From the NCBI GenBank assembly GCA_025463305.1, contig JAOBWK010000100.1, forward strand, positions 1-52,658: DNA of 52,658 nucleotides, read 5' to 3'. Source of the DNA: Ilumatobacteraceae bacterium (GTDB lineage: Bacteria; Actinomycetota; Acidimicrobiia; Acidimicrobiales; Ilumatobacteraceae). This document shows positions 18,318 through 34,344 of the stretch, in pieces. A program made the position numbers and the translations under genes. Every line of letters starts with the position of its first letter. The first letter of the stretch is position 1. Below the pieces are notes generated by a model. That model was not told the DNA's origin. It saw only the letters and a program-made list of their open reading frames with translations, and did no database searches.

Positions 18318-19553
18318 ATGGTCACGAGCGAGCTCTCCGACACGTTCTCCAGCCCCGTCGACGCGGTCGGCGGGCCGACCACGATCCTGCGTGGCGGGCG
18401 GGTCGTGGATCCGGCGGCCGGGATCGACGCCCTGATGGACGTGGTCGTCAGCGGTGACCGCATCGTCGGGCTCGTCGCGCCGGCCGATCGCGATGCCGCA
18501 GTCGAGGCGACGGCCACGGTGATCGACGTCGCCGGCTGCCTCGTCACCCCGGGCCTGATCGACCTGCACGTGCACGTGATGCCGGGCCTCGGCGACTTCT
18601 GCGTGGAGGCCGACGAGGTGGGCGTCGGGATGGGTGTGCCCGTGCTCATCGACGGCGGCACGAGCGGGGTCGCCACGTTCGACCTCGCCCGGCGGGCGAT
18701 CATCGATCATCCGGCGACGAAGAGCAAGATCCTCGCGTTTATCGATCCGAACCAGCTCTACCTGGCGACGAAGGACTTCATCTGCCACAAGCTGGAGATC
18801 GCCAACGACGCCCGCAACATCGACGTCGATTCGCTGGCCGAGTCGCTGGAGCGCAACGCCGATGTCGTGATCGGGATGAAGGTGCGGGCCTGCTACACCG
18901 ACGACCCGACCGTGTCGCCGTTCCTCGAGGTCGCCAAGCGCGCGGCCGGCGAGCTGCCGATCATGGTCCACCTCGGCCGCTTCCCGCACACGCCGTGCAT
19001 CTCCACGCCGACGTTGCTGCAAGCGCTGCGCGGCGGCGACATCATCACCCACGCGTTCCGGGGCGGCGGCGGCACGCTCGATGCCTCCGGCGCGTTGGTG
19101 CCCGAGTTCGTGGACGCGCTCGAGCGCGGGCTGCGCCTCGACATCGGCCACTCCGGCACGGACTTCCGCTTCCGCGAGGCTCGCCGGCTGTTCGCGCACG
19201 GCGTGTTCCCGCACACGATCTCCACCGACCTGAACATCTTCAACATCGGCGGACCCGTCTTCTCGCTCGCCGAGACGATGACCAAGATCTGGGCGATGGA
19301 CGTGGACCTCGTCGACGTGATCGCGATGTGCACCAGCAACGCAGCCGCCAGCATCCGTCGCAGCGGAGAGTTCGGCACGCTCGCCCCCGGTCGCTCGGCC
19401 GAGATCAGTGTGCTGCGCATCGATGACGGCCCGGGCACGGTCTCCGACGGCTACGAGACCGTGGCCGTCGAGCGGCGCCTCTCCCCCGTCGGCTGCCTGC
19501 GCGCCGGCACCTGGTACGCACCCACGAGCCTCGGCGTCGACGTCGCGGCGTGA
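18318..19553 (+). CDS. Binuclear-metal amidohydrolase
   Basis: 411 aa, TIM-barrel amidohydrolase of the dihydroorotase/deacetylase-like group. Metal ligands are readable: H84-x-H86 in DLHVHV, the probably carboxylated lysine K188 in IGMKVRA, H218 in MVHLGR, H245 in THAFRG and the catalytic D304 in STDLN. The N-terminal [13 protein letters not shown] and C-terminal [14 protein letters not shown] form the usual small beta domain. Characterised relatives hydrolyse N-acyl amino acids or cyclic amides/ureas. It starts the rightward operon, 13 nt before the first Rieske gene, so hydrolysis of an opened heterocycle is a reasonable guess. Confidence 0.82.
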
Positions 19554-19566
19554 TGGACCGGCCGTG

Positions 19567-20628
19567 ATGGAGCCGGAGTCCGTCGAGAACGTGTCGGTCG
19601 CGATCCGGCGGAACGATCGGGCTGTCGTCGAGATGCTCGAGGCGTTCTGGCACCCGGTCTGCACGCTCGACGAGTTGGAGGTGAGCGACAACGGCGTGCT
19701 CGCCGTGCAGCTGCTGGGTCGTGAGATCGCCGTGGCCCGGCTGGCCGATGGCACCGACTCTGACATCGACGACGACGGCACCGTCGTCGCGATGGACGAC
19801 CGCTGCGTCCACCGCTCGACCCGTCTCTCGGTCGGCTGGGCCGAGGCCGACGGCGTGCGCTGCGCCTACCACGGCTGGAAGTGGGACCGCAGCGGCCGGT
19901 GCATCGACATCCCGTCGATGCCCGACGGTCCGATCCCGGGCCGAGCACGGGTGCGCGCCTACCGCACCGATGTCCGCTACGGACTGGTCTGGGTCTGCCT
20001 CGACGAGCGCTCCGACGCAGTGGTCCCGGCGTTCGTGGCCGACGGTGATCCGTCGCTGCGGATCGTGTCCGGTGTGCCCTACACCTGGCCGGTGTCGGCG
20101 CTGCGCCGGGTCGAGAACTTCGTCGACCTCGCCCACTTCGCCTGGGTGCACGTCGGCACGCTCGGCCAGCGCGACCGACCGGTGCCGCCGATCCCCGAGA
20201 TCGAGCGGATCGACGGCGAGCTGCGCTTCACCTACGACCCGCCGAAGGACTTCGACGCGAGCGGTGCGGCGATGTACGGCTGGTCGCGCTACCGGATGCC
20301 GATCCCGTGCACCGTCAGCATCGAGTTCGAACTGGCCGACGGCGCGCGTCGGGTGCTGTGGATGACGGCGTCGCCGATCGATCTGGAGACCTGTCGCTCG
20401 TTCTGGTTCATGGCCCGCAGCGACGACGTCGATGGGCCCGACGGTCCCCACGTCGAGTTCCAGCGGATCGTGCTCGCCCAGGACCATCCCGTGGTCACCA
20501 ACCAGGTCCCGCGCGCCCTGCCGCTCGATCCGGCGGACGAGCTGTCGGTGCGCACCGACAAGGTGTCCATCGAGTATCGACGTTGGCTGCGCGAGCTCGT
20601 CGACGAACACATCGGAGCCCACGCATGA
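19567..20628 (+). CDS. Rieske non-heme iron oxygenase, alpha-type subunit (copy A)
   Basis: 353 aa. The Rieske [2Fe-2S] ligands are C80/H82 (DRCVHRS) and C99/H102 (CAYHGW). The mononuclear iron site is NFVDLAHFAWVH, with bridging D187 and ligands H190 and H195. Size and the N-terminal FWHPVCTLDEL match single-component-type oxygenases of the vanillate/caffeine demethylase kind, which need a separate reductase. No reductase gene is in the window. It lies between an amidohydrolase and Rieske copy B (ATGA overlap), so the two oxygenases are coupled. O- or N-dealkylation of a heterocycle is the favoured role (inference). Confidence 0.88.
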   Translation: MEPESVENVSVAIRRNDRAVVEMLEAFWHPVCTLDELEVSDNGVLAVQLLGREIAVARLADGTDSDIDDDGTVVAMDDRCVHRSTRLSVGWAEADGVRCAYHGWKWDRSGRCIDIPSMPDGPIPGRARVRAYRTDVRYGLVWVCLDERSDAVVPAFVADGDPSLRIVSGVPYTWPVSALRRVENFVDLAHFAWVHVGTLGQRDRPVPPIPEIERIDGELRFTYDPPKDFDASGAAMYGWSRYRMPIPCTVSIEFELADGARRVLWMTASPIDLETCRSFWFMARSDDVDGPDGPHVEFQRIVLAQDHPVVTNQVPRALPLDPADELSVRTDKVSIEYRRWLRELVDEHIGAHA

Positions 20629-21668
20629 GCACAGCTGTGCCCGGGACCGTCCCACTGACCGTCACCCGCGAGCTCACCAACACCGATCCCGCGCTGCGCA
20701 GCGCGTGGCACCCGGTGGCGTTGTGCGACGAGATCACGACGGAGCCGACCCAGGTCTGGCTGCTCGGCGAGCCGTGGGTGGTCGTGCGCGCCACGCCGGG
20801 CGCGGCACCGATCGCTCTGGTCGACCGCTGCCCGCACCGCCTTGCGCCCCTCTCGGCCGGACGCGTGCTGGCCGACGGCACCCTGCAGTGCGGCTACCAC
20901 GGCTGGCGGTTCGGCGCCGACGGCGGATGCACGCTCATCCCGGCGCTCGGGGCCGGTGCGACGTTGCCGCCGCGGGCCCGCGTGCAGGCCGCTGCGGGCG
21001 TGGCCGAGGTGGCGGGCATGGTGTGGCTCGCCCCCGAGGAGCCGCGCACGGTGCTGCCCGACGTGAGCCTCGTCGACGACTCGTTCGTACTCGGTCAGCT
21101 CTCGCCGGTGTCGACACCGGGATCGGCTGGCGCGATGCTCGACAACTTCCTCGACGTCGCCCACTTCCCGTTCGTGCACGCCGGCACGTTCGCCACCGAC
21201 GAGTCGGATCAGGTCGACGAGTACGACATCACCCGCACCGACGAGGGCTTCATCGCCGTCACCGAGCACAGCTTCGCCAACCACGAGGATCCCGGCGTGG
21301 CAGCCGGTTTCCGCCCACTCGTGCAACGCCGGCGGATGACCTACACGTACACCGGTCCGTTCACCGCGACGCTGCGCCTCGACTACGTCGACGCCGGCGG
21401 CACCAACCTGATCGTCTTCGCGATCCAGCCCGAGCGCGACGGCCATTGCCGGGTCTACACGTCGATCTACCGCGACGACATCGCACCGGAGGACATGCCC
21501 GGCGCCGTCGCGTTCGAGGAGCGGGTGCTCGCCGAGGACCTCGTCATCCAACACCGGATGCCACCGTCGCTCCCCCTCGACCTCACCGCCGAGGTGCACA
21601 TCAAGGCCGACAAGGTCACCATCGAGCTCCGCCGAGTCCTCGCCGCCTTCGTCGACTCGGCGCGCTAG
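20625..21668 (+). CDS. Rieske non-heme iron oxygenase, alpha-type subunit (copy B)
   Basis: 347 aa. Rieske ligands are C69/H71 (DRCPHRL) and C89/H92 (CGYHGW). The mononuclear site is NFLDVAHFPFVH, with D177, H180 and H185. Copy B resembles the cluster-less copy C at 31744-32667 more than copy A, sharing WLLG, MVWLAPE and DVAHFPFVH-like segments and the Lys-Ala-Asp-Lys (KADK) C-terminal region. It is coupled to copy A by ATGA. Its stop overlaps by 4 nt the stop of the convergent deaminase, where the two halves of the island meet. Confidence 0.88.
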   Translation: MSTAVPGTVPLTVTRELTNTDPALRSAWHPVALCDEITTEPTQVWLLGEPWVVVRATPGAAPIALVDRCPHRLAPLSAGRVLADGTLQCGYHGWRFGADGGCTLIPALGAGATLPPRARVQAAAGVAEVAGMVWLAPEEPRTVLPDVSLVDDSFVLGQLSPVSTPGSAGAMLDNFLDVAHFPFVHAGTFATDESDQVDEYDITRTDEGFIAVTEHSFANHEDPGVAAGFRPLVQRRRMTYTYTGPFTATLRLDYVDAGGTNLIVFAIQPERDGHCRVYTSIYRDDIAPEDMPGAVAFEERVLAEDLVIQHRMPPSLPLDLTAEVHIKADKVTIELRRVLAAFVDSAR

Positions 21669-22651
21669 GCCGGCTGCGCGAGCCAGGCGTCGATGCCGGC
21701 CAACGTGTCGGCCTTGAGGTCGGCGGGGGCGCCGCCGCACTCGATCGAGCAGCGCGCGATGAACGCGAGCTGCTCGTCGGTGAGGCCGAACTCGCGGCGA
21801 CACAGCTCGTACTCGTCGAGGAGGCCAGGCCCGAACAGCAGCGGATCGTCGGCGTTGATGCTGACCTTGACGCCGGCCTCGAGCAGGCGAGGCAGCGGGT
21901 GCTCGGCGAAGCCCGGGAAGACGCTGAGCATGATGTTCGAGGTCGGGCAGACGTCGAGGCACACGCCCTGCTCGACGAGCTGCTCGACCAGGCCGTCGAC
22001 CTCGAACGAGCGCACGCCGTGCTGGATCCGGTCGGCTCCGAGCAGATCGACGGAGTCCTTCACGAACTGACCGTGCTCGAGCTCGCCGGCGTGCGGCGTG
22101 ATCAGCAGCCCGCCCGCCTTGGCCACCGCGAAGCACTCGACGAAGTCCTGGGGCGGATGCCCGACCTCGTCGTTGTGCAACCCGAAGCTGACGACGCCAC
22201 GGTCCTTCAGCGAGATCGCCAGCTCGGCGATGGTCATCGCTTCCTCCGGCGTGTCGAGCACGCGGTCGACCGGCGCCATGAACCGCACGGTGATGCCGTG
22301 GGCCGCGGCGGCCTTGTCGAACACGTCGAGCACGATGTCCCACGTCGCTTCCAGGCTGCCCCAGATCGCCGTGTACTGGCCCGCCCACAGGGCGAGCTCG
22401 AGGTACACGGCGCCATCGGCGACGCCGTCGGCACAGATCTCGTCGGCGAGCCGCTCCCAGTCGGACCGATCGCGAAGCGTCTCCATCGTGGCCTGGCACG
22501 TCGCGCTGAACGCGGTGAAGTTGCCGTAACCGCGGATGACGGGGACCTCCATGTCGTACTTCGCAGCGAGGTCGGCGAGCGTCGACGGGCGCATGCCCAG
22601 CTCGAGGTGCAGGTGCAGATGCCCCTTGGGCAGTGCCTTCAGATCACGCAT
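21665..22651 (-). CDS. Adenosine-deaminase-family protein 1
   Basis: 328 aa, metal-dependent hydrolase that removes amino groups from adenosine-like purines. Metal and catalytic residues are H13/H15 (HLHLHLEL), H187 and E190 in PHAGE, H211 in QHGVRS, and D268/D269 in SINADDP. CPTSN (235-239) is also family-typical. The fifth His-rich turn at the N-terminus (GHLHLHLELGM) departs from the usual ELHxHLxG. It is the most distal gene of the leftward group, 117 nt after the flavoprotein gene. The exact substrate among adenosine, adenine or modified forms cannot be read. Confidence 0.88.
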   Translation of the reverse strand: MRDLKALPKGHLHLHLELGMRPSTLADLAAKYDMEVPVIRGYGNFTAFSATCQATMETLRDRSDWERLADEICADGVADGAVYLELALWAGQYTAIWGSLEATWDIVLDVFDKAAAAHGITVRFMAPVDRVLDTPEEAMTIAELAISLKDRGVVSFGLHNDEVGHPPQDFVECFAVAKAGGLLITPHAGELEHGQFVKDSVDLLGADRIQHGVRSFEVDGLVEQLVEQGVCLDVCPTSNIMLSVFPGFAEHPLPRLLEAGVKVSINADDPLLFGPGLLDEYELCRREFGLTDEQLAFIARCSIECGGAPADLKADTLAGIDAWLAQPA

Positions 22652-22768: not shown

Positions 22769-24022
22769 CTAGGAATAGATCCCGGGGGGTGGGTCCCATC
22801 CTGTCAGGAGGTGGTGGCCGATCTCCTCGTGCTTCCAGTCGACGGGGTCGTGCAGCGACAGGGTGCGGGCGTTGCGCCAGTACCGGTCGAAGCCGTTGCC
22901 GGCGGCCGCTCCGCGCGTGCCGAGCATCGCGTAGATCTCCGACGTCGACCGAACGGCGGCGCGGCTGGCGACGGCCTTCGCGGCGTAGATCGGCAGGGCC
23001 AGCGCGGTGCGGTCGATCTCGCCGCGCTCGAACGCATCGAGCAGCGGACCGGTCGCCATGGTCGCGTGATAGGCGGCGACCAGGTCCGATGCGAGCTCGC
23101 CGCACAGGCGGCGCACCATCGGGTCGTCGACCGCGGTGGTGGCATCTGGGACGAGCGCCACGGCGGACGGCCACGGTCGCGTCGACGACGAGGCGAACGA
23201 CATCGCGACGCGCAGCGCGCCGAGACCGATGCCGACGAGCGTCGCGGCGAAGCCGGCCTGGTACCGCACCGCGTTCTGCGGCAGCGGCGCGCGACCCGGC
23301 TCGCTCGCCCGACGGTCGGCGTCGTGCTCCACGCCCGCGAACGTGATCGTGCCGCTGTCGGTGGCGCGTTGGCCGAGCGCGTCCCAGTCGCGGCGCACGG
23401 TCATGCCAGGCGCATCGCGTGGAACGAGGCCGAGCTGGAAGCCGAGCAGCGGGTTCGTGTCGATGCCGGGCACCGTCGGGTTGAACGCCCACACGGCGAT
23501 CTCGTCGGCCTCGGCCGCTCCAGTGGTGTAGATCTTCTCGCCGTCGATCGTGAAGCCGCCGGCGCTCGGCAGCACCACCGTCTGCCACGGCGCGTCGACG
23601 GTCTTGCCGGCCTCGGCGACCGCGAGGCCGATGATGTGCTGCATCCCGACGACCCGATCGGCGAACGGCTGCCGCATCGCGTCCGGGCAGTACACCGTGA
23701 TCTCGCGCACCAGCTCGTCGTGCACCTTGAAGATCTGCGCGACGGCGCTGTCGGCCATCGCCAACCGCACCTGCACCTCCAGCGATGCAGCGTGCGATGC
23801 TCCGACGCCACCGAGCTCGGCGGGCACACCGAGCGCGAGCGCACCCGTGTCCTTCAGCGCCGCGATCGATCGCGTCGGGTACCTGCCTGCGGCGTCGTGC
23901 TCGCGGGCCAGTGGGGCGACCACCGTGTGGATGGCATGATCGACCCGGGTGAGCACGGCGAGCTCCGCGTCGGTGAGCGCCGGCGGCGGGATCGCCGCAC
24001 CGAGCAGGCGGGCCAGCGTCAC
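22769..24022 (-). CDS. Acyl-CoA-dehydrogenase-fold flavoprotein, DszC/SfnB-like
   Basis: 417 aa. The N-terminal helical domain, central beta domain (AGGFTIDGEKIYTTGA at about 145-160) and C-terminal helical bundle follow the acyl-CoA dehydrogenase fold. The residue pattern, GQRATDSGTITFAGV and the end DWKHEEIGHHLLTGWDPP, looks like the flavin-dependent monooxygenase branch (DszC, SfnB) rather than true acyl-CoA dehydrogenases. The active-site Glu of dehydrogenases is not obvious. GTG 24022 overlaps the adenine-deaminase stop as GTGA, fixing the start. Context suggests oxidation or N-/S-hydroxylation of the island's substrate (inference). Confidence 0.72.
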   Translation of the reverse strand: MTLARLLGAAIPPPALTDAELAVLTRVDHAIHTVVAPLAREHDAAGRYPTRSIAALKDTGALALGVPAELGGVGASHAASLEVQVRLAMADSAVAQIFKVHDELVREITVYCPDAMRQPFADRVVGMQHIIGLAVAEAGKTVDAPWQTVVLPSAGGFTIDGEKIYTTGAAEADEIAVWAFNPTVPGIDTNPLLGFQLGLVPRDAPGMTVRRDWDALGQRATDSGTITFAGVEHDADRRASEPGRAPLPQNAVRYQAGFAATLVGIGLGALRVAMSFASSSTRPWPSAVALVPDATTAVDDPMVRRLCGELASDLVAAYHATMATGPLLDAFERGEIDRTALALPIYAAKAVASRAAVRSTSEIYAMLGTRGAAAGNGFDRYWRNARTLSLHDPVDWKHEEIGHHLLTGWDPPPGIYS

Positions 24023-25875
24023 GACCCACCGGCCTGGGCAACGCTGGCCGGATCGAACAGCCGGTGCACATCGTGGGCGTGCGTGGGACAGCGGCAGCAG
24101 ACCTGGCCGGGCAGAGCGGTCAGCACCACATCCACGAACGACTGCGAGGCCACGTCGATCAGACCCTTCTCGGTGAGGCCGAGGTCGGGCACGCCCGCCA
24201 GGCCGATGAACGCCATGATCATGAACGGCGCCTGGATCGTGCAGCCCAATGCTGCTGCCGCAGCGTTGACCGCGACGGACTGGTCGCGCACGATCTCCCA
24301 TGGCTCGTCGCTCATGATCCCGGCGATCGGCAGCGGGCACGTCGCGAGCACCTCGCCGTCGGCGACGGCGACGTAACCGCCACCGATCCCGGCGGCGGCG
24401 AGGGCGGCGTGGGCGATGTCGGCGTCGGTGGTGCCGACGATCACCAGGTTCTGGTTCTCGCAGTTGGTCGTGGCCGCGATCGCGCCGCGGCGCATGCCGA
24501 AGCCGCGCACGAAGCCCATCCCGATCGCCGTCGTGGCGTGGTGCCGATCGACGATCGCCACCTTCAGCACATCGCGGTCGGTGTCCGGCGCGACGACGCC
24601 GTCGGCGACCGCGAGCTCGGCGTGGAAGGCGCGCTTGAAGTAGCCGTCGTACATCTCGACCGCCTGCACCCAGGCCGTGTCGCCCTCGGCGGTGACCGCG
24701 AACGACGAGGCGCCGAGGCCCTCGGCGAGGTGCATCGTGCCCCGGCTCCAGTCGGGCATCGTGTCGGTGTTGGCGAACCTCGGCTCGCCGTGCTCGGCCA
24801 CGACTGCTCCGCCGACCACCACCATCGTCGGGCTGGGATCGGCGAGGTCCTCGACGAGCATCAGGTCGGCGAGCCGGCTCGGCGTGATCGAGCCGAGCAG
24901 GTGGTCGAGGCGGAAGTGGGTGGCGGCGTTGAGCGTGGCCATCCGGATCGCCATCACGGGATCGACCCCGGCGCGGATCGCCTGGCGGACGTGGTGGTCG
25001 ATGTGGCCCTGCTCGGCGAGGTCCTCGACGTGCTTGTCGTCGGCACAGAAGCAGATGTGGTGCATGCCCATCCCGAGCGCGTCGAGGTCGGCGAACACCG
25101 CCGGGCAGTTGTCGTTCATGCTCCCGGACATCACCGTGATCGCCATGCCGAGCCGCAACCGCTCGAGCACCTCGTCAGTGTTGAACGCGTTGTGGTCGTC
25201 GCCGACACCGCCGGCGATGTAGGCCCACAGTGGCTCCTCCGACAGTCGCGCGGTGTGGCCGGTGATCCGCTTGCCGGCGGCGAGCGCCGTCCATTGCTTG
25301 ATCGCGGAGTCGAGCGAGAGGTTGAACGGGTTGCCCTCGCCGAGCGTGACGGCATTGGCCCGCCCCATCCGCTCGAGCGTCTCCGCGCTCGTCACCACCG
25401 CTCCCCCGAGCTCCTTGTCCGGCAGCCGGGGCACCTCCGGCGAGATCTGCTGGAGGATCCGCAGCGGCGTGCCGGTGGTAGCGACGAGGTCCATGCCCGG
25501 TGCGCCGAGCACGTTGGCGATGCAGTTGGGATCCGCGAGCAGCGTGGTGGTGCCCTTCGGGACGATGACCCGGGCGAGCTCGCCGGGCGTGAGCATCGTG
25601 TACTCGATGTGGATGTGGGTGTCGATGAACGTCGGGATCACGAACAGACCGGTGGCGTCGATGATCTCCGGTGCGTCGAAGCGGCCGACGGGTGTCACCG
25701 CGGCGATGTGCGATCCGGCGATGACGACGTCGCGCAGCAGCACCTCACCCGTGTGCAACGCGACGACCTTGCCGCCGCGCACGATGATGTCGCCCGGCTC
25801 GGTTCCGTTGGCCACCAGGCGGAGGTGCTGCAGCTGCTCCGGTAACGGGAGCAGGTCGATCGGCAAGAAGCTCAT
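24019..25875 (-). CDS. ade: Adenine-deaminase-family protein with Cys/His-rich tail
   Basis: 618 aa (E. coli-type enzymes are about 590). The amidohydrolase core shows PTFIDTHIHIEYTM with H87/H89, and GHTARLS and CADDKHVEDL metal-site segments. The C-terminal half has the adenine-deaminase layout (TTNCENQNLVIVG, GGGYVAVADGEVLA, GLTEKGLIDV). Two departures are visible: LGEGNPFN in place of the usual LGExMN, and an extra tail CCRCPTHAHDVH near residues 595-606 that resembles a metal site. Canonical enzymes convert adenine to hypoxanthine; these changes may mean a related base. It is coupled to the flavoprotein gene by GTGA. Confidence 0.82.
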   Translation of the reverse strand: MSFLPIDLLPLPEQLQHLRLVANGTEPGDIIVRGGKVVALHTGEVLLRDVVIAGSHIAAVTPVGRFDAPEIIDATGLFVIPTFIDTHIHIEYTMLTPGELARVIVPKGTTTLLADPNCIANVLGAPGMDLVATTGTPLRILQQISPEVPRLPDKELGGAVVTSAETLERMGRANAVTLGEGNPFNLSLDSAIKQWTALAAGKRITGHTARLSEEPLWAYIAGGVGDDHNAFNTDEVLERLRLGMAITVMSGSMNDNCPAVFADLDALGMGMHHICFCADDKHVEDLAEQGHIDHHVRQAIRAGVDPVMAIRMATLNAATHFRLDHLLGSITPSRLADLMLVEDLADPSPTMVVVGGAVVAEHGEPRFANTDTMPDWSRGTMHLAEGLGASSFAVTAEGDTAWVQAVEMYDGYFKRAFHAELAVADGVVAPDTDRDVLKVAIVDRHHATTAIGMGFVRGFGMRRGAIAATTNCENQNLVIVGTTDADIAHAALAAAGIGGGYVAVADGEVLATCPLPIAGIMSDEPWEIVRDQSVAVNAAAAALGCTIQAPFMIMAFIGLAGVPDLGLTEKGLIDVASQSFVDVVLTALPGQVCCRCPTHAHDVHRLFDPASVAQAGGS

Positions 25876-26909: not shown

Positions 26910-27776
26910 TCAGTCCTCCGTCAACCGTTCAGGGTTGAACCTGGCGAGGATCGGCGTCTCGATGATGCCGACGACGGCGTAGAGGATCAGCGCCACGGAT
27001 GTCACCACGGCAACGGCCGCCCACACGCCGGTGTAGTCGAACTTCGCGGGCCGTTCGGCGAGGTAGCTGCCGATGCCCTGCTTGGTGAGCAGCCACTCGC
27101 CGAGGAGCGCGCCCACCATCGCGCCGGGCACGGCGATGCGCATCGCCGCGAACAGCGGCGGCACCGCGTAGGGCAGACGCACCTTCAGCAGCGCCGTGCG
27201 GTTGGACCCGCCGTACGCCTCGATCAGGTCGATCGACTGCTTCGGCGCCGACTCGAGGCCGAGCGAGATGTTGACCAGCGAGGGGAAGAACGTGACCAGT
27301 GCGGTGACGACCCGGACCGAGGTGATCGAGTAGCCGGACACCAGACCGATGATCGGGGTGAGCGCGATCAGCGGAACCGAGCGGAGCAGCAACGCGAACG
27401 GCATGAACGTGCGCCTGATCGTCGGCGAGAGGATGAACAGGCTCGACACGACGATGCTCGCGATGAGCCCGATCAGGTAGCCGACGAAGACGTTGCCGAG
27501 CGTGGTCTTCAGGGCCTTGAACAGGGCGGTCCGGTTGGCGTCGGACTTCGGTGCCGAGAACAGGTATGTCCAGACCTGGCTCGGCGACTTCTTGACCAGC
27601 GCGTCGATGTCGACGGTGTGCACGAAGGCGTACCAGAGCACGAACGTCGAGGCGAAGCCGATGCCGAGCAGCATGATGATGCGCCGGACGCGCTTGAGGC
27701 CAGGGTGGTTCCAGGCGGACTGCCCGGAGCCACTCGGGCTCGATTCGTTCTGCACGGTGACTGCGAGGGTGCTCAT
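26910..27776 (-). CDS. ABC importer permease, NitT/TauT (SsuC/ThiX) type
   Basis: 288 aa binding-protein-dependent permease with about six membrane segments (near 34-52, 92-116, 122-145, 150-180, 210-230, 248-270). The EAA loop is IEAYGGSNRTALLKVRLPYAVP (185-206 in part). It has a cytoplasmic N-terminus of ~30 polar residues. ATG 27776 overlaps the preceding permease stop (ATGA). It forms a heteromeric channel with the next upstream gene. Confidence 0.87.
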   Translation of the reverse strand: MSTLAVTVQNESSPSGSGQSAWNHPGLKRVRRIIMLLGIGFASTFVLWYAFVHTVDIDALVKKSPSQVWTYLFSAPKSDANRTALFKALKTTLGNVFVGYLIGLIASIVVSSLFILSPTIRRTFMPFALLLRSVPLIALTPIIGLVSGYSITSVRVVTALVTFFPSLVNISLGLESAPKQSIDLIEAYGGSNRTALLKVRLPYAVPPLFAAMRIAVPGAMVGALLGEWLLTKQGIGSYLAERPAKFDYTGVWAAVAVVTSVALILYAVVGIIETPILARFNPERLTED

Positions 27777-28606
27777 CGCCGGCTCCTTCCTGGCGCCCAG
27801 CGGGTGAAGTAGCGGGCGGAGACGGTGGTGATGAAGAACCCGACGCCGGCGAGCGCCGTGGCGAGGAAGCCGATGCCCCACGTGCGGGACACCTTGTTGG
27901 CCTGGAGGCTGGCGATCATGAAGATCCCGAGGCCGCGCTCACCACCGAAGAACTCGCCGATGATGGCGCCGAGGATCGCGGCCGGAGCGGCGATCTGCAG
28001 CCCGGCGAACGTGCTCGGCAATGCGGAGCGGATGCGCACCTTGACCAGCTGGGTGAACCGGTTGCCGCCGTACGCCTTGACGAGCTCGACGCTGTGGCGA
28101 TCGGCGGAGCGCAGACCGACGAGCACGCCGATCAACGTCGTGAAGAACACACTCAGGGCGACGAGCGCCACCTTCGGCGCATCACCCTTCAGCGAGGCTT
28201 GCAGGATGGGGCCGACGGCGACGATCGGCAGGCAGTACGTGGCCACCGCGATCTGCATCAGTGCCTTCTCGAAGAACGGCACGAGCACGAACAGCATGCC
28301 GATGAAGATCGCCAGCGCGTTGCCGATGAGGTAGCCGCGCCACGCCTCGGAGAACGTCGTGCCGATGTTGCGCGGGTAGTAGTGCCAGTCCACCTTCAGC
28401 TGGTGGATCACGCTCCACGGCTGGGGGATGCCCTTGTGGAGACCCCAGACGGTGGCGGCGAGGATCCAGAAGCCGAGCACCAGCCCGATGCCGAGCACCG
28501 TGCCGGACCACAGCGGCAGGCGGAACCGGCGCTTGGTGCCGTGCTCGGGAACGCCGTCGTCTTCGAGGTAGCCGGACTCCAGGACGAGCTCCGTGTCGGA
28601 CCTCAC
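27773..28606 (-). CDS. ABC importer permease, NitT/TauT (SsuC/ThiX) type
   Basis: 277 aa. The EAA loop is VKAYGGNRFTQLVKVRIRSA and it has about six membrane segments. It starts with GTG 10 nt after the ATPase stop and overlaps the second permease by 4 nt. Two different permeases with one ATPase and one NMT1-like binding protein fit the importer types used for pyrimidine precursors, riboflavin, nitrate and sulfonates. Here the surrounding purine deaminases suggest a nucleobase-like cargo. Confidence 0.87.
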   Translation of the reverse strand: MRSDTELVLESGYLEDDGVPEHGTKRRFRLPLWSGTVLGIGLVLGFWILAATVWGLHKGIPQPWSVIHQLKVDWHYYPRNIGTTFSEAWRGYLIGNALAIFIGMLFVLVPFFEKALMQIAVATYCLPIVAVGPILQASLKGDAPKVALVALSVFFTTLIGVLVGLRSADRHSVELVKAYGGNRFTQLVKVRIRSALPSTFAGLQIAAPAAILGAIIGEFFGGERGLGIFMIASLQANKVSRTWGIGFLATALAGVGFFITTVSARYFTRWAPGRSRR

Positions 28607-28616
28607 GGTTGCGGCC

Positions 28617-29492
28617 TCACAGATCGTCGCCGCTGGTCGGCACGCCGTCGGAGAAGAGCAGGTCGGAGAGGTGGTCCTCGAGCTCGTGGAACTCGTTGCT
28701 GCGGAGCATCTCCGGGGTGCGCGGGCGGGGCAGATCGATCGGCACGATGGCCTTGATCCGGCCCGGCCGGGGGCTCATCACCGCGACGGTGTCGGAGAGG
28801 AACACGGCCTCGGCGATGGAGTGGGTGACGAGCAGGGTCGTGGTGACGCGCTCGGTCCAGATCCGCAGCAGCTCCAGGTTGAGCCGGCGGCGCGTCATCT
28901 CGTCGAGCGCGCCGAACGGCTCGTCGAGCAGGAGCACCTGCGGCTCCACCACGAGCGCTCGAGCGATCGCGACGCGCTGACGCATGCCACCGGAGAGCTG
29001 GGCCGGGCGAGCCTTCTCGAAGCCCTCGAGGCCCACCAGGCTGATCAGGTCGGGGATGGTGTTCGGCCCGACCTTCACGCCGCTCACCTCCAGCGGTAGG
29101 CGGATGTTGCTCTCCACCGTGCGCCACGGCAGCAACGCTGCGTCCTGGAACGCGATGCCGAGGTGCCGCTTGTCGCGCAGCGCCTTCGGCTTCTCGCCGT
29201 GCACGCGCACGTCGCCCGACGTCGGGGTCTCCAGGTCGGCGATGATCCGCAGCACGGTCGACTTGCCGCAGCCCGAGGGTCCGAGCAGCGACAGGAACGA
29301 GCCCTGCGGGGTCCGCAGGTTCAGGTTGTCGAGGGCGACGACCTGCTTGCGTCCGATGGTGAACACCTTGCTCAACGCCGAGATCTGGATCCCCGCGTTG
29401 TTGCTGCTCACTGCGGACGGCGAGGCCGGGACGGCCACCTCTCCCGGATGACTTGCGTCAATCACCGTCCCGTCCTCCTCCGTCACACTCAT
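28617..29492 (-). CDS. ABC importer ATP-binding protein, NitT/TauT (SsuB) type
   Basis: 291 aa. Walker A is GPSGCGKST, the Q-loop is in [11 protein letters not shown], the signature is [15 protein letters not shown], Walker B is [13 protein letters not shown], and the H-loop is in VTHSIAEAV. An N-terminal extension of about 33 Ser/Ala/Glu-rich residues precedes the core. The start at ATG 29492 lies 8 nt after the binding-protein stop. Confidence 0.9.
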
Positions 29493-29500
29493 GTCCTGAC

Positions 29501-30739
29501 TCAGGTGGGGATGCCGAGCAGGTCGGGGTTCTCCGCGTACACCGCTTTCAGCAGTGAGAAGTCGAAGAGCGCCTCGGCCGTGATCGTCAGACCTGCCTTG
29601 CCGAGCGTCTCGATGTTCTTGGCGATCAGGTCGTCGCTCACGCTGAGGATGCCGCCGGTCTTGGCATCGTCCGTGAACACCAGCCCGAGCTCCGACTTCA
29701 CCTCGAGGGTCTGCTCGTCGGTGTCGAGGCCGAGGTCCGAGCCGTACTTCGTGGTGGTCAGCTTCGCTGCGTTGGCGGGGTCCTTGTACACGTCGCGCCA
29801 GCCCTGGATCTGGGCCTTGAGGAACGCCTTGAGCGCCTCCGGGTTGCTCGTGATGGAGTCCTTCTTGACGACGTAGGTCTCGCTCACCAGCGGGTAGCCG
29901 AAGTCGGCGAGCAGGAACGTGACCGTGTCGACCTTCTGCTCCTTGAGCAGGTTGGGCTCGTTGGTGATGAAGCTGAACCAGCAGTCGCACTCGCCGTTCA
30001 CGAGCGGCTGCGGATCGAACTGGGCGGGGAACTTGATGATCTTCGAGTCGTCGATGCCCGACGCCGCGACGAACGCATCCCACACGACCTGGTTGGCGCT
30101 CTGCAGGCCGAACTTCTTGCCGTACATGTCCTCCGGCGTCTTGATCGGGTTGCTGGCGAGCGACATGACCGCGAACGGGTTCTTCTGGTACTCGGCGCCG
30201 ATGATGATCAGGTCACCACCGGCGTTGATCGCGGCCGCCGTCACGTCGGGGGCCGAGATGCCCACGAGGGCGGTGCCGGACGAGACGTCGACCTCGGCCG
30301 CCGTTGCGGTGGGGCCGCCGGCGATCAGGTTGACGGTCGAGAAGCCGGCGGCGGTGTAGTAGCCGTTCGTGTCGGCGAGGTAGGCGCCGGCGAACTCCGA
30401 GTTCTTGATCCACGACAGGCGGAACGCCAGAGTGCCGAGATCGCTGGGGGCGATCGCGACGGTGGTGTCCGAGCCGGCCGTGCTGGCTGCCGTCGAGCCG
30501 GCGGTGCTGGCAGCCGTCGTCCCGGCCGTGGTGCCCGCGGTGCTCCCGGCGGTTGTCGCAGCAGTGGTGTCGGCGGTGCTCGCCTCCGTGGCCGCAGATG
30601 TGCTGGCCGTGGTGGGTGCAGTGGTCGTCGCCGTCTTCTTGTCCGAGCCGCACGCAGCAAGGAACGCGGCGCCGAGCACCGCTCCCCCGCTCAGCTGTGC
30701 GCCTCGCTGCAACAGGTCACGTCGGTTCATCGTGGTCAT
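29501..30739 (-). CDS. NMT1/THI5-like substrate-binding lipoprotein
   Basis: 412 aa. The N-terminus [15 protein letters not shown] has a twin-arginine-like pair, followed by a hydrophobic stretch and the lipobox LAAC (cleavage before C30). It is therefore a membrane-anchored, possibly Tat-exported binding protein. Residues about 36-95 are an almost pure Thr/Ala/Ser/Gly linker with [12 protein letters not shown] repeats. The ligand domain follows ([35 protein letters not shown]), matching NMT1-like proteins that bind HMP, riboflavin or similar. GGAGG precedes the ATG. It is the first gene of the importer operon, with a 121-nt upstream region. Confidence 0.87.
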
Positions 30740-30860
30740 GGGTCCTCCATCCCGAGGGGCGCCGGACTGCGCCCTTCACCTCGGCGAGGACGCTACGGAT
30801 CGCGCATTTCTTGCGTGTTTCCGGCGATGCGTCGGTTGGTGAACGGTGTGTGCTCCCCGC

Positions 30861-31730
30861 TCAGCGCGCTGCGTTCTTGACGAACTCGTCGTAGTGCGAG
30901 GCGCTCATCCGCTCGCCGCCGTAGAAACCGCCGCGCACGTGGCGGCGGGTGGTCTCGTCTGCCGTGGCCCGCGCCGCGGAGTGCCAGAGGTAGGCGTCGT
31001 GGAGGATGATGTCGCCCCGCTCCGCGTACACCCCGATCTCACCAGGCACCTTCTCGAACCGCAGCGGCATCGGGAACGGTGGCGGCTCGGCCGTGTGGCC
31101 AGCGGCAGCGGCCGACCCCTCCGGCACGCGTGCGCCGTTCACGTTCTCGTACGGGGCCGGCGTCGCCCACAGGTGGCTGCCGGGCACGACGCGCAGGAAC
31201 CCGTTGTCGGGCGAGGTGCCGTCGATGTGGAACGTGAAGGCCACCGACGGCCAGACCCGCAGGTTCGGGCCGCTCTGCCAGTCGGAGTGCCAGCCGATGC
31301 GGGTGTACGAGCTCTCCCGCCCCGGTCGGGCGTCCTGGTAGACGACGCCGAACCGCTCGTTCTCGTCCGCCCAGCAGTCGTCGCCGAGCAGCCCGCGCAT
31401 CAGCGCCATCAGCACGGGATGGTCGATGCAGTCCTTGACGACGGGCGACAGCCGCTCGATGTACAGCACGTAGTTGGCGAACTGGCTGGCGCGGCCGGTG
31501 TCGGCGTCGTCGACGAGGATGGTGGTGCCGTGCTTCGGGTCGAGCTCGCCGGACACGACGCGCGCCTGGGCGTCGACGCACTGCACCTCCATCGCGGCCA
31601 TCGTCGGCTCGTCGAAGATGCCGCGCAGGATCGCGAACCCGTTGGCGCGGAAGAAGGCGAGCAGTCCGTCGGGGTCGTCCGGGCCGAAGACGCCCGGTTC
31701 GAGGTGGGGCAGGGTCGAGCTGTCGGTCAT
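30861..31730 (-). CDS. Phytanoyl-CoA-dioxygenase-family Fe(II)/2-oxoglutarate oxygenase
   Basis: 289 aa. Iron ligands are H148-x-D150 (GWHSDWQSG) and H250 (LWHSAARA). The downstream Arg in TRRHVRGGFYGG is the likely 2-oxoglutarate anchor. PhyH-family enzymes hydroxylate many small molecules, including N-/O-alkyl groups and ectoine. It is the last gene of a three-gene group (deaminase 3, cluster-less Rieske protein, PhyH), starting 13 nt after the Rieske stop with GGAG 7 nt before the ATG. The substrate is unknown; hydroxylation of the same heterocycle is inferred. Confidence 0.85.
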   Translation of the reverse strand: MTDSSTLPHLEPGVFGPDDPDGLLAFFRANGFAILRGIFDEPTMAAMEVQCVDAQARVVSGELDPKHGTTILVDDADTGRASQFANYVLYIERLSPVVKDCIDHPVLMALMRGLLGDDCWADENERFGVVYQDARPGRESSYTRIGWHSDWQSGPNLRVWPSVAFTFHIDGTSPDNGFLRVVPGSHLWATPAPYENVNGARVPEGSAAAAGHTAEPPPFPMPLRFEKVPGEIGVYAERGDIILHDAYLWHSAARATADETTRRHVRGGFYGGERMSASHYDEFVKNAAR

Positions 31731-31743
31731 CGGTGTGCTCCGT

Positions 31744-32667
31744 TCACGCGGTGGTCGCGAGGGTCGGCGGGTGGGCCACGTCGTGGGTGCTGGCGAGGTC
31801 GGCCATCAGCCGGCGCCACGCGACGCTGAGCCGATCAGCCTTGGTGTGCACCTCGCGCGTCAGATCGAGCTCGAGATGCATCGCGGTGTAGCGCTCGAGG
31901 ATGTTCAGGTCCTCCTGCAGGATCGCGTCCTCGTCGGCGACGCACCTCGCCATCGCCGCCGCGTCGTCGCCGAGGTCGTTGCGGGCCATGACCTTGTAGA
32001 CGCGGGTGCTGCCGGCGGTCTCCGGCTGGCAGGAGTACATGATGGTGAACAGCCCGTCGGTCATCGGGAACCGGAGCTCGAGCGACGCGTTGCAGGCCGC
32101 GTAGCCGACCTTGGTGACCTCGTGCGGCTGCACGAGCGGATGCTCGCCCGTGGCGACGAGGGGGTCGTCGTGATTCTGGTACGGCGCCGTGAACGCCGAG
32201 CGAACCAGCCAGTCCTCGCGCACGATCTCGTCGCTGTTCACCTCGAACGCGTCCTCCACACCGAACGACGCAGGGTGGACGAACGGGAAGTGGGCCGCGT
32301 CCATGAAGTTGTCGATCAGCTGCACCGCGCTGACGGGTGTGCGCACGGTGGCGCACGTCGCGGTGAGGAACCCAGCCTCGTGCCATCCCGGCAGCGGGGG
32401 CAGCGGCGCGTTCGGCGTCTCCGGCGCGATCCAGACCAGGCCGAGGTGCTCGACCACGGCGGCGGCCGGATGCTGACCGTCCGCCGGCGTCGCGGTCAGC
32501 TCGCCAGCGTCGCGGCGGAGGTCCCAGCGACGGCCGAGCAGCCAGATCGGCGTGCCATCGGCACCATCCGCACCGCCCGTTGCGTCGACCTCGTCACCGT
32601 GGGCCACGGCGAACCACGCCGCGCCCAGCTCGGGCGAGGTGTTGTGCAGCACCGGCATCGTGCGCAT
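31744..32667 (-). CDS. Rieske-oxygenase-like protein lacking the Rieske cluster region (copy C)
   Basis: 307 aa. The catalytic domain is intact: NFMDAAHFPFVH gives D123, H126 and H131, and the C-terminal KADRLSVAWRRL matches copy B. The N-terminus also aligns with copy B (PIWLLGRRW, then GLVWIAPE), but between them copy B has about 88 residues carrying CxH and CxxH, while copy C has only about 37 and no Cys/His pair. The deletion is in frame, about 51 residues, with no stop, so a folded cluster-less protein is likely. It may work with another cluster donor or have a non-oxygenase role. Start 32667 is 2 nt after the deaminase 3 stop; ATG 32658 is possible. Confidence 0.82.
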   Translation of the reverse strand: MRTMPVLHNTSPELGAAWFAVAHGDEVDATGGADGADGTPIWLLGRRWDLRRDAGELTATPADGQHPAAAVVEHLGLVWIAPETPNAPLPPLPGWHEAGFLTATCATVRTPVSAVQLIDNFMDAAHFPFVHPASFGVEDAFEVNSDEIVREDWLVRSAFTAPYQNHDDPLVATGEHPLVQPHEVTKVGYAACNASLELRFPMTDGLFTIMYSCQPETAGSTRVYKVMARNDLGDDAAAMARCVADEDAILQEDLNILERYTAMHLELDLTREVHTKADRLSVAWRRLMADLASTHDVAHPPTLATTA

Positions 32668-32669
32668 CG

Positions 32670-33722
32670 TCAGCTCGCGTCGCGCAGCGTCATCGACACC
32701 TCGTCGATCATCCCGTGCATGCGCTGCTTCTCGTCCTCGCTGGCCCACGTCGCGGTGACACCGTCGTGGGCGATCTGCACCATCGTCTCGACCGAGTAAC
32801 CGTAGGTGTTGGCGACGTTCGTGTACTCGGCACCGAGCGAGAGCCCCACCAGCGCGGGATCGTCGGTGTTCAAGGTGGCGAGCAGGCCCGCCTCGCGCAT
32901 CGTCGGGAACGCGTGCTGGCCGAGCGACGGGCACTTGTCGGGGTTGATGATCACGTTCGCCGAGGGGCACACGGTGAGCGGGATCTGCTCGTCGACGAGC
33001 CGGGCGAGCAGGTCGCGATCGTCGAGCACGGAGATGCCGTGGTCGATCCGCTCGCAGTCCAGCACGTCGAGCGCGAGGCCGATCGCGCTCGCCGGGGAGT
33101 CCTCGCCCTGGTGGGCCGTACGGTGCAGGCCTGCAGCCTTGGCCATCGTGTACGCGCCGGCAAAGGCGCACGGATCGACACCCCGCTCCGTGGAGTCCAT
33201 GCCGATGCCGATGATCCGTTCGCTGCCGTGCGCCGCCCGCCGGCGCAGCTCGATCAGCATCTCCATCTGCTCGTCCGCCACGGCCCCACCGAAGTCGCGG
33301 TCGATGTCGTAGATCATCCGCGTGACCGATCCGGTCTCGCGCTCGCCGGCGGAGAGCCCGTCGTCGATGCCGGCGACGATGTCGGCCAGCGACATGCCGT
33401 TGCGCAGGTGACGGGCGGGCGTGAAGAACACCTCGCGGTACACGACACCGTTCGAGGCCGCCTGCAGCACGCTCTCGTACGAGAGCATCGCCCAGTCCTC
33501 ACGGGTCTGCAGCACCGATTGCACGAACCAGAAGACATCGAGGAACCCGGTCAGGTTCGCGTACCGGTACATCTCCTCGAGCGGCGCCGGCTGGCTGACA
33601 CCGTTCTTGCGGGCCAACTCGGCGAGCGTGTCGGCCAGCATCGTGCCCTCGAGGTGGACGTGGAGCTCAACCTTGGGCAGACGAGTGAGCGTGTCGCGCA
33701 GCGAGGTGGGCACAACCGACAC
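32670..33722 (-). CDS. Adenosine-deaminase-family protein 3
   Basis: 350 aa. Ligand and catalytic positions are H21/H23 (ELHVHLEG), H204 and E207 in AHQGED (Gln replaces the common Ala of HAGE), H228 in DHGISV and D287 in NTDDP. CPSAN replaces CPTSN, and MDSTERG replaces the usual DLAGxE. It is closer in length to true adenosine deaminases than copies 1 and 2. GTG 33722 has GGAAG about 7 nt upstream. It is the first gene of the group with Rieske copy C and PhyH. The region 33723-33840 upstream is the probable promoter; I see no clear boxes. Confidence 0.86.
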   Translation of the reverse strand: MSVVPTSLRDTLTRLPKVELHVHLEGTMLADTLAELARKNGVSQPAPLEEMYRYANLTGFLDVFWFVQSVLQTREDWAMLSYESVLQAASNGVVYREVFFTPARHLRNGMSLADIVAGIDDGLSAGERETGSVTRMIYDIDRDFGGAVADEQMEMLIELRRRAAHGSERIIGIGMDSTERGVDPCAFAGAYTMAKAAGLHRTAHQGEDSPASAIGLALDVLDCERIDHGISVLDDRDLLARLVDEQIPLTVCPSANVIINPDKCPSLGQHAFPTMREAGLLATLNTDDPALVGLSLGAEYTNVANTYGYSVETMVQIAHDGVTATWASEDEKQRMHGMIDEVSMTLRDAS

Positions 33723-33840
33723 ATTGTTCTTCCGATGTTTCGCCGACGTGAACGGACGAGCACGGAATGATGAGCACAGTGTGTCCGACGTCGCAGTCCA
33801 TCAGCAGCGCTGTTGGACCCGTGTCGGCGAGCGCGACCGG

Positions 33841-34344
33841 TTACTGGGCGCCGACCTGTTGGGCGTAGTCGACGCCGCAGCTCTGGTCGAGGCCGAGCAC
33901 CTGCATGAAGCGCCCGAACGCGATGTACTTGCCGATGACCAGCGTCAGCTCGACGATGTCGGCCGGCGAGAAGTGCTCGCCGAGGCGGGCGATGAAGGCG
34001 TCGTCGATGTTCGCCGAATCGCGGCTGAAGCGGTCCGCGTACTCGATCGCGACGGCCTCCTTCTCGGTGAACGCCGTGCTGGTCCTGAACGACTCGACCT
34101 CGTTCAGCAGCTCCTCGGTGATGCCGGCCGCCTGCGCCGCCGGTGTGCGCCAGGCCAGGCAGACCGTGCAGGCGTTGATCTGGGCGACGCGCATCCGCAC
34201 CAGCTCGTGCACCCGCGGGTCGATCGGGCTCGCGGCCACCGCCGCGTCCATGCCGCCGACCGCCTTGGCGAGCTCCGGTCGGATCAGCGACAGCGCGTTG
34301 ACGATCTCGAGGGTGCTGGTGTCGGGGAGCGCGATGCGGGCCAT
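33841..34344 (-). CDS. Carboxymuconolactone-decarboxylase/AhpD-family protein
   Basis: 167 aa, all-helical CMD fold. The redox-type CxxC is C59/C62 in INACTVCLAW. The proton-relay His that follows the CxxC in AhpD is missing, so peroxidase activity is doubtful. Members act as decarboxylases, redox partners or unknown oxidoreductases. The start is supported by TAGCAT 6 nt upstream. It is on the same strand as the deaminase 3 group but separated from it by 118 nt. Confidence 0.82.
   Translation of the reverse strand: MARIALPDTSTLEIVNALSLIRPELAKAVGGMDAAVAASPIDPRVHELVRMRVAQINACTVCLAWRTPAAQAAGITEELLNEVESFRTSTAFTEKEAVAIEYADRFSRDSANIDDAFIARLGEHFSPADIVELTLVIGKYIAFGRFMQVLGLDQSCGVDYAQQVGAQ

Follow-up and report, generated by a model that had tools for sequence, protein, structure and literature searches.

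Fifteen open reading frames lie between positions 18318 and 34344 of the analysed window (the whole stretch of DNA, 52,658 nucleotides); all are open frames with family matches in profile searches of their translations, and the codon bias of most fits a GC-rich genome. Twelve genes run head to tail on the minus strand from 34344 down to 21665, and the last of these, ADA1, stands tail to tail with the three plus-strand genes, which encode an amidohydrolase (AHS) and the Rieske oxygenases RO1 and RO2. Starts were refined from the translations for RO1, RO2, the SfnB-like protein, permease B, the ATPase and the Rieske-type protein ROx. AHS (18318–19553, plus strand) is of the PRK09237 'amidohydrolase/deacetylase' type (NCBIfam NF006689, 369 bits, cut-off 371). 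The gene inventory of the original prediction, comprising three adenosine-deaminase-family (ADA) genes, an adenine-deaminase-like gene, two intact Rieske oxygenases and one without cluster, a flavoprotein, a PhyH-family 2-oxoglutarate/Fe(II) dioxygenase (30861–31730, minus strand; PF05721), an amidohydrolase and an ABC importer, is present. A gene for a carboxymuconolactone-decarboxylase/AhpD-like protein (33841–34344, minus strand; PF02627), which forms the upstream end of the island, can be added to that list; it occupies the same place in locus L001 with 77% identity and is found in 1 of 76 importer loci.

Xanthine dehydrogenase (XDH), urate and allantoin genes had been reported as lacking from the window, which agrees with our searches: no member of these families was detected among 40 window ORFs searched in Pfam (the SfnB-like frame left out), and XDH was not found by tblastn of 30 reference proteins, which included XDH subunits and no urate or allantoin proteins.

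Importer and deaminases

The importer consists of a substrate-binding lipoprotein of the NMT1/THI5 type (SBP; 29501–30739; PF09084, 127.5 bits, cut-off 20.5), an ATPase (28617–29492; PF00005, 111 bits) and the permeases A (27773–28606) and B (26910–27776), both PF00528 and, like the rest of the importer, on the minus strand. Both the sequence profile and the structure model of SBP are nearest to formylaminopyrimidine (FAMP)- and thiamin-binding proteins, with TauA and SsuA ranking lower. SBP thus has fold and family in common with ThiY-type NMT1/THI5 binding proteins, but identity to them is about 20%, and SBP sits in a purine gene context.

The three ADA proteins, all encoded on the minus strand, exceed the TIGR01430 cut-off of 216.55 bits (ADA1, 21665–22651, 251.9 bits; ADA2, 25929–26888, 230.4 bits; ADA3, 32670–33722, 264.5 bits) and match PF00962 with 247.9, 230.8 and 239.5 bits, respectively. 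Each carries the motif HxHLE, whereas five of five housekeeping ADAs carry HxHLD (HDHLD), the motif of nucleoside-specific members of the family. HxHLE is not island-specific, being found also in seven of the eight non-island, non-housekeeping ADAs compared. The nearest solved relatives of ADA1–3 are 3ou8 and 3rys (the latter closest to ADA3, 196.9 bits), which have HxHLE/HxHIE motifs; these PDB entries are labelled adenosine deaminase, and we take them to be the adenine deaminases Pa0148 and AAur1117. By motif, the island ADAs therefore look like free-base deaminases. The adenine-deaminase-like amidohydrolase (ADE; 24019–25875, minus strand) bears out its proposed family by resemblance, with 3nqb 'Adenine deaminase 2' as the closest solved structure, but it falls short of the TIGR01178 cut-off (394.5 of 472.5 bits) and its motifs are altered (DPNCIAN and HIEYTM), DPHE being replaced by DPNC.

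Gene neighbourhood of the importer

In 14 genomes, purine genes stand beside the importer at 14 of 14 loci, compared with 2 of 26 other NMT1 loci in the same genomes (P-value = 5e-9, Fisher test), and Rieske oxygenases at 12 of 14 loci, compared with 0 of 26 (P-value = 1.6e-8, Fisher test); the control of arbitrary 20 kb regions gave 0 of 14. Among all 76 importer loci found, 46 have purine genes and 30 have none of the purine families sought; 20 of these 30 also lack a Rieske gene, and the purine-less loci include eight from Actinoplanes/Paractinoplanes with the importer alone. Across 198 genomes of the class, importer and ADA1 each occur in nine, eight of them in common, and in eight of the nine importer-bearing genomes RO2 is no more than about 12 kb away from the importer. 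ADA1 is near the importer in other genomes too. Importer, ADA and Rieske genes thus co-occur and co-locate elsewhere, the point on which the predicted gene set had been staked.

Relatives' importers have XDH, 8-oxoguanine deaminase (593.6 bits, cut-off 532), nucleoside hydrolase and urease as neighbours, and because of these genes a purine as the class of the island substrate is supported. In Streptomyces, too, this importer type has a Rieske oxygenase as a neighbour, and the two such oxygenases placed in the tree group with HpxD, which likewise favours a purine. Furthermore, AHS has relatives adjoining the importer at 8 of the 76 loci, and relatives of PhyH occur at 23 of them. A relative of AHS with 54.5% identity lies in a Frankia locus with XDH and OHCU decarboxylase. 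In L001, the closest genome, PhyH, ROx, ADA2, ADE and the SfnB-like gene are absent from the corresponding place, and these five are therefore not essential to the core. With these data, an actinobacterial importer family with relatives named for the transport of nitrate, sulfonate and bicarbonate acquires a substrate class that can be tested, and becomes linked to NdmA/B-type oxygenases as well as to three paralogous deaminases.

Intact Rieske oxygenases and the candidate purine route

RO1 (19567–20628, plus strand) matches the NdmA/NdmB chains 6icp, 6ick and 6icl in the PDB with 271, 267 and 235 bits, the next match being SxtDIOX with 110. Its placement inside the NdmA+NdmB clade was rejected: NdmA and NdmB group first in the tree, with RO1 as their sister (support 95). 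RO1 has the NdmB-type selectivity pair Q/L (N/F in NdmA), as do 119 of 120 RO1 homologues, the remaining one having Q/I. The QL swap alters NdmA selectivity, and the PDB holds an entry titled 'NdmA QL mutant'. The RO1 homologue of the L001 relative (81% identity) is named ndmA in NCBI. Given this kinship, N-methyl removal by RO1 is plausible. RO2 (20625–21668, plus strand; VanA_C and Rieske domains) has HpxD as its best match among nine ndm/hpx reference proteins (31.6%); at that identity, and with a separate clade in the tree, next to the ROx type, its membership of the HpxD group was rejected.

We consider it probable that the island serves an acidimicrobial actinobacterium for importing purine bases, most likely ones with N-methyl and/or amino substituents, and for the first steps of their catabolism; an N-methylated or amino-purine base is our best guess for the substrate itself. 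The base would be taken up by the NMT1-type lipoprotein, two permeases and ATPase. RO1 may then remove N-methyl groups oxidatively, as its clade and NdmB-like residues suggest, and ADA1–3 with the ADE-like protein would take exocyclic amino groups off the free bases to give oxopurines, while RO2/ROx and PhyH might oxidise further positions or substituents. The product would pass to urate/allantoin degradation, with the genes for it lying outside the island. Such is the arrangement in the closest relative, G001, where one contig carries a gene for OHCU decarboxylase together with an allantoate-amidohydrolase-like one (386 bits, cut-off 399). Of the substituted adenine-like compound originally proposed, the purine class is backed by the relatives' importer neighbours, but 'N-alkylated adenine-like' is conjectural and plain aminopurines also fit; the ring opening that formed part of the same proposal is likewise conjectural for the island enzymes.

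Ordinary purine assimilation is a rather unlikely alternative, in which adenine, guanine or hypoxanthine would be imported and deaminated to hypoxanthine/xanthine, and HpxD-like Rieske ring hydroxylation would replace the molybdenum enzyme XDH, with no dealkylation. It is consistent with the best reference match of RO2, with the Streptomyces loci where the same importer type adjoins a Rieske oxygenase (two of which group with HpxD, support 100), and with G001 and the complete genome G006, which have no XDH above the model cut-off but do have OHCU decarboxylase; G006 also has an HpxO-like gene (485.8 bits, cut-off 500), PuuE (433.7 bits, cut-off 424.6) and a Rieske gene nearby. However, RO1 is about 42% identical to NdmA/NdmB and 32.5% to HpxD, several extra enzymes would be left without a role, and 11 of 14 relatives have an XDH that exceeds the cut-off, so that the Rieske genes cannot be seen as mere stand-ins for XDH. 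The Hpx route (HpxD Rieske hydroxylase, HpxO urate hydroxylase) resembles the proposal for the island in using Rieske enzymes in purine breakdown, and G001 and G006 likewise combine urate-route genes with the lack of XDH above cut-off, but the HpxD clade contains none of the island's Rieske proteins, and the window has no match to the reductases that neighbour the annotated hpxD and the oxygenase of Streptomyces.

Another N-heterocycle, such as a thiamin-type pyrimidine, a pterin or a cytokinin, is an improbable substrate: relatives of SBP bind formylaminopyrimidine and thiamin, and amidohydrolases are described as including cytokinin and N6-methyladenine deaminases (PMC13054789), but the purine genes accumulating beside the importer and the nearness of RO1 to methylxanthine demethylases argue against it. 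The earlier suggestion of scavenging sulfur from 5'-methylthioadenosine or another sulfur nucleoside, which drew on the SfnB/DszC-like flavin monooxygenase (22769–24022, minus strand, GTG start) and an SsuABC-like importer and accords with weak permease matches to sulfonate, nitrate and taurine models, is the most improbable, as the flavoprotein, for all its likeness, scores far below both model cut-offs (SfnB TIGR04022, 211.7 of 430.9 bits; DszC, 166 of 850 bits) and its gene occurs in just 1 of 76 importer loci (it is present in L002), the SBP model is nearest ThiY/Thi5-type folds, and the ADAs look free-base type.

The preferred purine module also has described counterparts. In the caffeine N-demethylation system NdmABCDE of Pseudomonas putida, RO1 finds its sister proteins, but no NdmD-like partner was found: the window showed no NdmD-like reductase fusion, as NdmD matches there are confined to the Rieske portions of RO1 and RO2, and in 10 relatives NdmD gave partial matches only (the Rieske part or, once, the reductase part). 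Two ndm-type plasmid clusters have a nucleobase:cation symporter, whereas the island has deaminases and an ABC importer. In Proteobacteria, NMT1-type proteins have been tied to purine oxidation, together with deaminases and either Rieske or 2-oxoglutarate oxygenases, through the NMT1-motif (xanthine) riboswitch, reported only from that group (PMC7373994); these gene sets show the same combination as the island. The claim that no described pathway joins such genes must therefore be tempered in view of the NMT1/Rieske/deaminase link, NdmABCDE and HpxD; the available portion of that report mentions neither three ADA paralogues nor a cluster-less oxygenase. An Rfam search of the window at the gathering threshold detected a tandem glycine riboswitch only, and no NMT1-motif riboswitch.

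The cluster-less oxygenase

ROx (31744–32667, minus strand) has a VanA_C domain and no Rieske match in Pfam, in keeping with its first description as cluster-less. The [2Fe-2S]-binding subdomain has been cleanly excised, with flanks retained and the frame open, and the structure model is confident (pLDDT 91.7). The letters of the NxxDxxHxxxxH iron motif are present in nine of nine full-length cluster-less proteins, and the third-ligand Asp is kept in all six of these that were checked. NdmC indicates that such proteins can be active without a cluster of their own (PMC4408171), and it was the sole precedent for a cluster-less Rieske oxygenase found in the literature. In NdmA/NdmB, electrons reach the iron from the neighbouring subunit's cluster (PMC10380055); therefore, a partner's Rieske cluster could serve ROx, the best candidate being RO2.

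ROx is probably still an enzyme, since its iron site retains the ligands as well as the aspartate that lies between these. We regard it as unlikely that it is dead or merely structural, the product of a decaying gene: the electron-entry cluster is missing, the relative L045 looks frame-disrupted and the trait is rare (at E 1e-45, ROx-like proteins are matched in four of 395 class genomes, all with the cluster motif kept), but the conserved iron site, the clean excision, the confident fold and the active precedent of NdmC speak for function. For an enzymatic ROx, a more specific version, to which we give a low probability, combines a dedicated route for methylated aminopurines (e.g., bases from RNA turnover or DNA repair) with ROx as a split subunit in an RO2 oligomer, fed by the RO2 cluster. 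Should ROx prove active with no cluster of its own, the division of Rieske oxygenases into one subunit for catalysis and another for electron entry would be easier than so far known, and a natural mixed complex would be at hand for testing inter-subunit electron transfer.

ROx and the NdmC-type protein of L135 are alike in the missing [2Fe-2S] motif and the retained iron site, but ROx lies outside the NdmC clade: in the tree it groups with RO2-type proteins, with NdmC far off on a long branch. Common descent of ROx and NdmC was thus rejected in favour of separate origins. A single origin of the cluster losses within the ROx family was likewise rejected, the loss having occurred several times; such repeated excision, if true, would represent further origins of cluster-less Rieske oxygenases beyond NdmC, here without an NdmD-type partner.

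Gene content of the island and of related loci

The island is a real and conserved purine module; its kind is known, the combination of its parts is new, and one of its proteins is a surprise. Its 15 genes, assigned to families by Pfam and NCBIfam, are tightly packed with short gaps from 18318 to 34344, and GC content, taken every 2 kb along the window, is uniform at 0.67-0.72. Pairwise identity is 30-35% among the adenosine-deaminase-family proteins ADA1-3, and 25-38% among the two intact Rieske oxygenases, RO1 and RO2, and the Rieske-type protein ROx (31744-32667, reverse strand), which indicates that both trios are old paralogues and not fresh duplications.

The substrate-binding lipoprotein (SBP; 29501-30739, reverse strand) of the NMT1-type ABC importer has its nearest genome relative in Acidimicrobiales bacterium RYN_39 (locus L001, 82-85% identity); among named database relatives, an Ilumatobacteraceae bacterium shows 68%. 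On this basis, the window very probably stems from an acidimicrobial actinobacterium. L001 keeps the order CMD (carboxymuconolactone-decarboxylase/AhpD-like), ADA3, importer, ADA1, RO2, RO1 and AHS (amidohydrolase) at 77-90% identity, without PhyH, ROx, ADA2, the adenine-deaminase-like ADE and the SfnB-like flavoprotein at this place. Another locus, L002, carries PhyH, ADA2, ADE, SfnB and a ROx relative with an intact cluster, and there is no RO2 or ADA3 in the locus. Comparison of these contents reveals that the importer, two ADAs, RO1, RO2, AHS and CMD are common to the window and L001; PhyH, ROx, ADA2, ADE and SfnB are variable extras, gained or lost between loci. No described cluster with the island's gene set was found in the open-access literature of one library.

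A tRNA-Ser(CGA) called by ARAGORN (31664-31758, forward strand), overlapping the start of PhyH on the opposite strand, is probably false, with no Rfam match at the gathering threshold, and at the same threshold no NMT1-motif riboswitch was detected in the window. Elsewhere, an ordinary tandem glycine riboswitch (46156-46348, forward strand) closely precedes the gene for a glycine cleavage P-protein (46379-49273). Biotin-cluster-like genes (class III aminotransferase, class I/II aminotransferase and AAA_26) occupy 7751-12167 on the forward strand; in the middle ORF (631 aa), either the N-terminal 297 residues have no Pfam match or the start lies later.

Purine genes around the importer

To locate importers elsewhere, 36 of the 120 listed SBPs were aligned and the genome collection was scanned, which yielded 76 importer loci. 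Their content was read from BLAST best matches to 30 reference proteins (15 from the window and 15 annotated neighbour proteins), after matches with query coverage below 40% were dropped. Rieske oxygenases, a class that here takes in HpxD-type (purine Rieske hydroxylase) proteins, occurred in 38 of the 76 loci, xanthine dehydrogenase (XDH) subunits in 26, PhyH in 23, urease in 21, ADA in 17, 8-oxoguanine deaminase in 16 and nucleoside hydrolase in 5. ADE-type proteins were counted in 19, including a Frankia type in which, for the protein scanned, adenine-deaminase models match the C-terminal part only. At least one purine family was present in 46 loci, a Rieske gene only in 10, and neither in 20.

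Two controls were analyzed: every remaining NMT1 match at E 1e-15 in 14 genomes, 26 in total, and 14 arbitrary 20 kb regions. Purine genes were found at 2/26 and 0/14 of these (both hits XDH-type) and Rieske genes at 0/26 and 0/14, whereas the importer loci of the same genomes had purine genes in 14/14, ADA in 13/14 and Rieske genes in 12/14, a contrast that is inflated because 12 of the 14 genomes were hand-picked from the 76 loci, mostly for already visible richness.

No hand-picking entered a draw of 198 genomes from the class. The conservation of the gene set in relatives, to which the original prediction of a purine island looked, was borne out here: importer, ADA and Rieske genes occur together elsewhere, and of nine genomes with the importer (E 1e-60) and nine with strong ADA1, eight are common to both, seven of them with the two genes within about 8 kb. 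The ADA1 threshold (E 1e-80) was set after seeing a gap between 9e-85 and 5e-54, and 30 of the 198 genomes match out to the 1e-40 limit of the search. Strong RO2 was present in 22 genomes (E 1e-65, likewise set after seeing a gap; 27 match out to the search's 1e-50 limit), and in eight of the nine genomes with the importer the two are no more than about 12 kb apart. Six of the nine had been met earlier in the analysis (G004, G005, G006, G008, G012 and G154, which carries the contig of L007). Among the three newly met, G120 has both ADA1 and RO2 near the importer, G198 RO2 only, and G201 neither at the thresholds used; around the G201 importer (L094) there are weaker ADA, ADE, PhyH and nucleoside-hydrolase matches.

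In Frankia, urease and xanthine dehydrogenase adjoin the importer, the latter scoring 1039 bits with the PucD model against a cut-off of 784. Acidimicrobial loci have genes for 8-oxoguanine deaminase (above cut-off) and TRZ/ATZ-type hydrolases, and nucleoside-hydrolase-type genes; in several Streptomyces loci the importer is accompanied by TauD, a reductase and a Rieske oxygenase. Judged from these neighbour genes, the ligand class of the importer is purine-like, in line with a proteobacterial NMT1-motif study (PMC7373994). Sulfur nucleosides such as MTA, raised earlier in view of the SfnB-like protein, are unlikely given the NCBIfam scores, the 76-locus counts, the ADA motifs and the SBP model comparison.

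The two Streptomyces Rieske proteins included in the tree grouped with an annotated HpxD (support 100). At about 6200-12600 in L022, L049 and similar loci of Streptomyces, an HpxD-type Rieske gene, a reductase and the NMT1 importer stand in one block, with TauD in L022; the L022/L049 block is a candidate molybdenum-free purine oxidation cluster. Additionally, the purine genes of L005, L010, L046, L076 and L086 have nearby a flavin monooxygenase of the luciferase type (75-85% to the L005 protein), and those of L005, L010 and L086 a second amidohydrolase as well; the limits applied gave no match to the monooxygenase in the window.

Probable demethylation and deamination

The best solved relatives of RO1 are, by a wide margin, the methylxanthine N-demethylases NdmA/NdmB, to which RO1 is sister in the tree, and its two best plasmid matches belong to ndm-type clusters, one from P. 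putida and one from Paraburkholderia caffeinilytica. By homology, RO1 is the island protein nearest to a characterised enzyme. At the two selectivity sites, taken from the alterations in PDB structures titled 'NdmA QL mutant', RO1 has Q and L, as in NdmB-type plasmid proteins; 119 of 120 homologues are Q/L and one is Q/I. N-demethylation by the island is thus predicted as likely. A full-length match to an NdmD-like reductase was found neither in the window nor in 10 relatives. In RO2 and ROx the two selectivity sites are E and L, and an aminopurine might pair, through an N-H or its amino group, with this Glu. An RO2-like oxygenase (45-53%) persists in small Acidimicrobiia genomes of 1.6-2.2 Mb (L077, L079-L085), with no matches to the importer SBP or deaminases nearby.

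The ADAs were compared in five relatives. Each has one ADA of 339-351 bits outside the island, termed housekeeping, besides others that score 220-263 bits, of which some are island genes. All five housekeeping proteins carry HDHLD. HxH.E was found in ADA1-3, in all 26 importer-adjacent ADA ORFs (>120 bits, 16 loci) and in the closest solved relatives 3ou8 and 3rys (6n9m has HRHLD). The motif is not confined to the island, since of eight further non-island ADAs seven carry it, as HxHLE or HxHVE; the eighth has HLHLD. Presumably the Asp of HxHLD contacts ribose. We take 3ou8 to be Pa0148, which reportedly deaminates adenine, according to the title of Goble et al. from 2011, cited in PMC6281700. 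In the window ADE the motifs are DPNCIAN and HIEYTM, an alteration shared with the L002 ADE; ADEs of five other loci have DPHE(L/I)AN and ESSM or ESSK, and 14 Frankia-type rows have no such motif. Because of these altered motifs, the ADE substrate may be other than adenine.

For later steps, XDH exceeded the model cut-off in 11 of 14 relatives and did not do so in G001, G006 and G012, of which G001 is weak evidence for absence because its completeness is not stated. Uricase was found in 1/14 and OHCU decarboxylase in 4/14 (G001, G006, G011 and G198), in G001 on the same contig as an allantoate-amidohydrolase-like gene. In the complete genome of Aquihabitans sp. G128 (G006), an HpxO-like protein just below cut-off, PuuE above cut-off and a Rieske protein with 34% identity to both RO1 and HpxD are encoded close by.

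The cluster-less oxygenase ROx

All four cluster ligands were present in 107 of 122 rows (the 120 listed homologues, window protein included, plus RO1 and RO2) and incomplete in 15. Six short fragments (P0133, P0140, P0153, P0157, P0233 and P0236) were set aside by length; nine full-length cluster-less proteins remain, which rejects a truncated-contig artefact. In the alignment the cluster region is cleanly excised, while both the N-terminal strands and the post-excision segment are kept, and the inter-anchor span is 27-34 residues in six cluster-less proteins versus 80 in the one measurable intact protein. The iron-motif letters N, D, H, H are present in 9/9 full-length cluster-less proteins, and ROx shares the third-ligand Asp with all five cluster-less relatives examined.

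Trees were built from the part downstream of the cluster region, with rows lacking an iron-motif pattern match excluded, RO1 among them; the first kept P0233, and the second omitted P0233, P0204, L045 and RO2 and retained only two locus rows. Cluster-less rows required six changes on the first tree, and five without P0204, P0233 and L045. A single origin was rejected on the second tree (p-AU 6e-58, lnL difference 205); the window ROx and P0124-P0126 may, by these sequences, share one origin (p 0.47). The trait is rare in genomes: ROx-like matches (E 1e-45) were obtained in 4 of 395 class genomes, each with its cluster motif intact. Carriage on viral or plasmid DNA was rejected: a search of the viral collection limited to close relatives gave no matching stretch, and plasmid records gave five distant matches, none with 80% coverage. 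The Aquihabitans ROx-like gene (L045, about 16782-17867) has an N-terminal half apparently out of frame in a complete genome, which seems to be a frameshift or a sequencing error.

The predicted ROx model is confident (pLDDT 91.7, pTM 0.89) and matches the folds of SxtT/GxtA and NdmB/NdmA. NdmC, described as a cluster-less Rieske oxygenase (PMC4408171), was the only precedent found in our literature search; it is phylogenetically separate from ROx. According to a further study (PMC10380055), the distance from the cluster to the neighbouring subunit's iron in NdmA/NdmB is 12.1 Angstrom, compared with 44.7 within the monomer, and NdmA and NdmB tend toward mixed hexamers. By analogy with these distances and hexamers, a mixed RO2/ROx oligomer would be reasonable; the RO2-type and ROx-type clades are adjacent in the tree (support 95).
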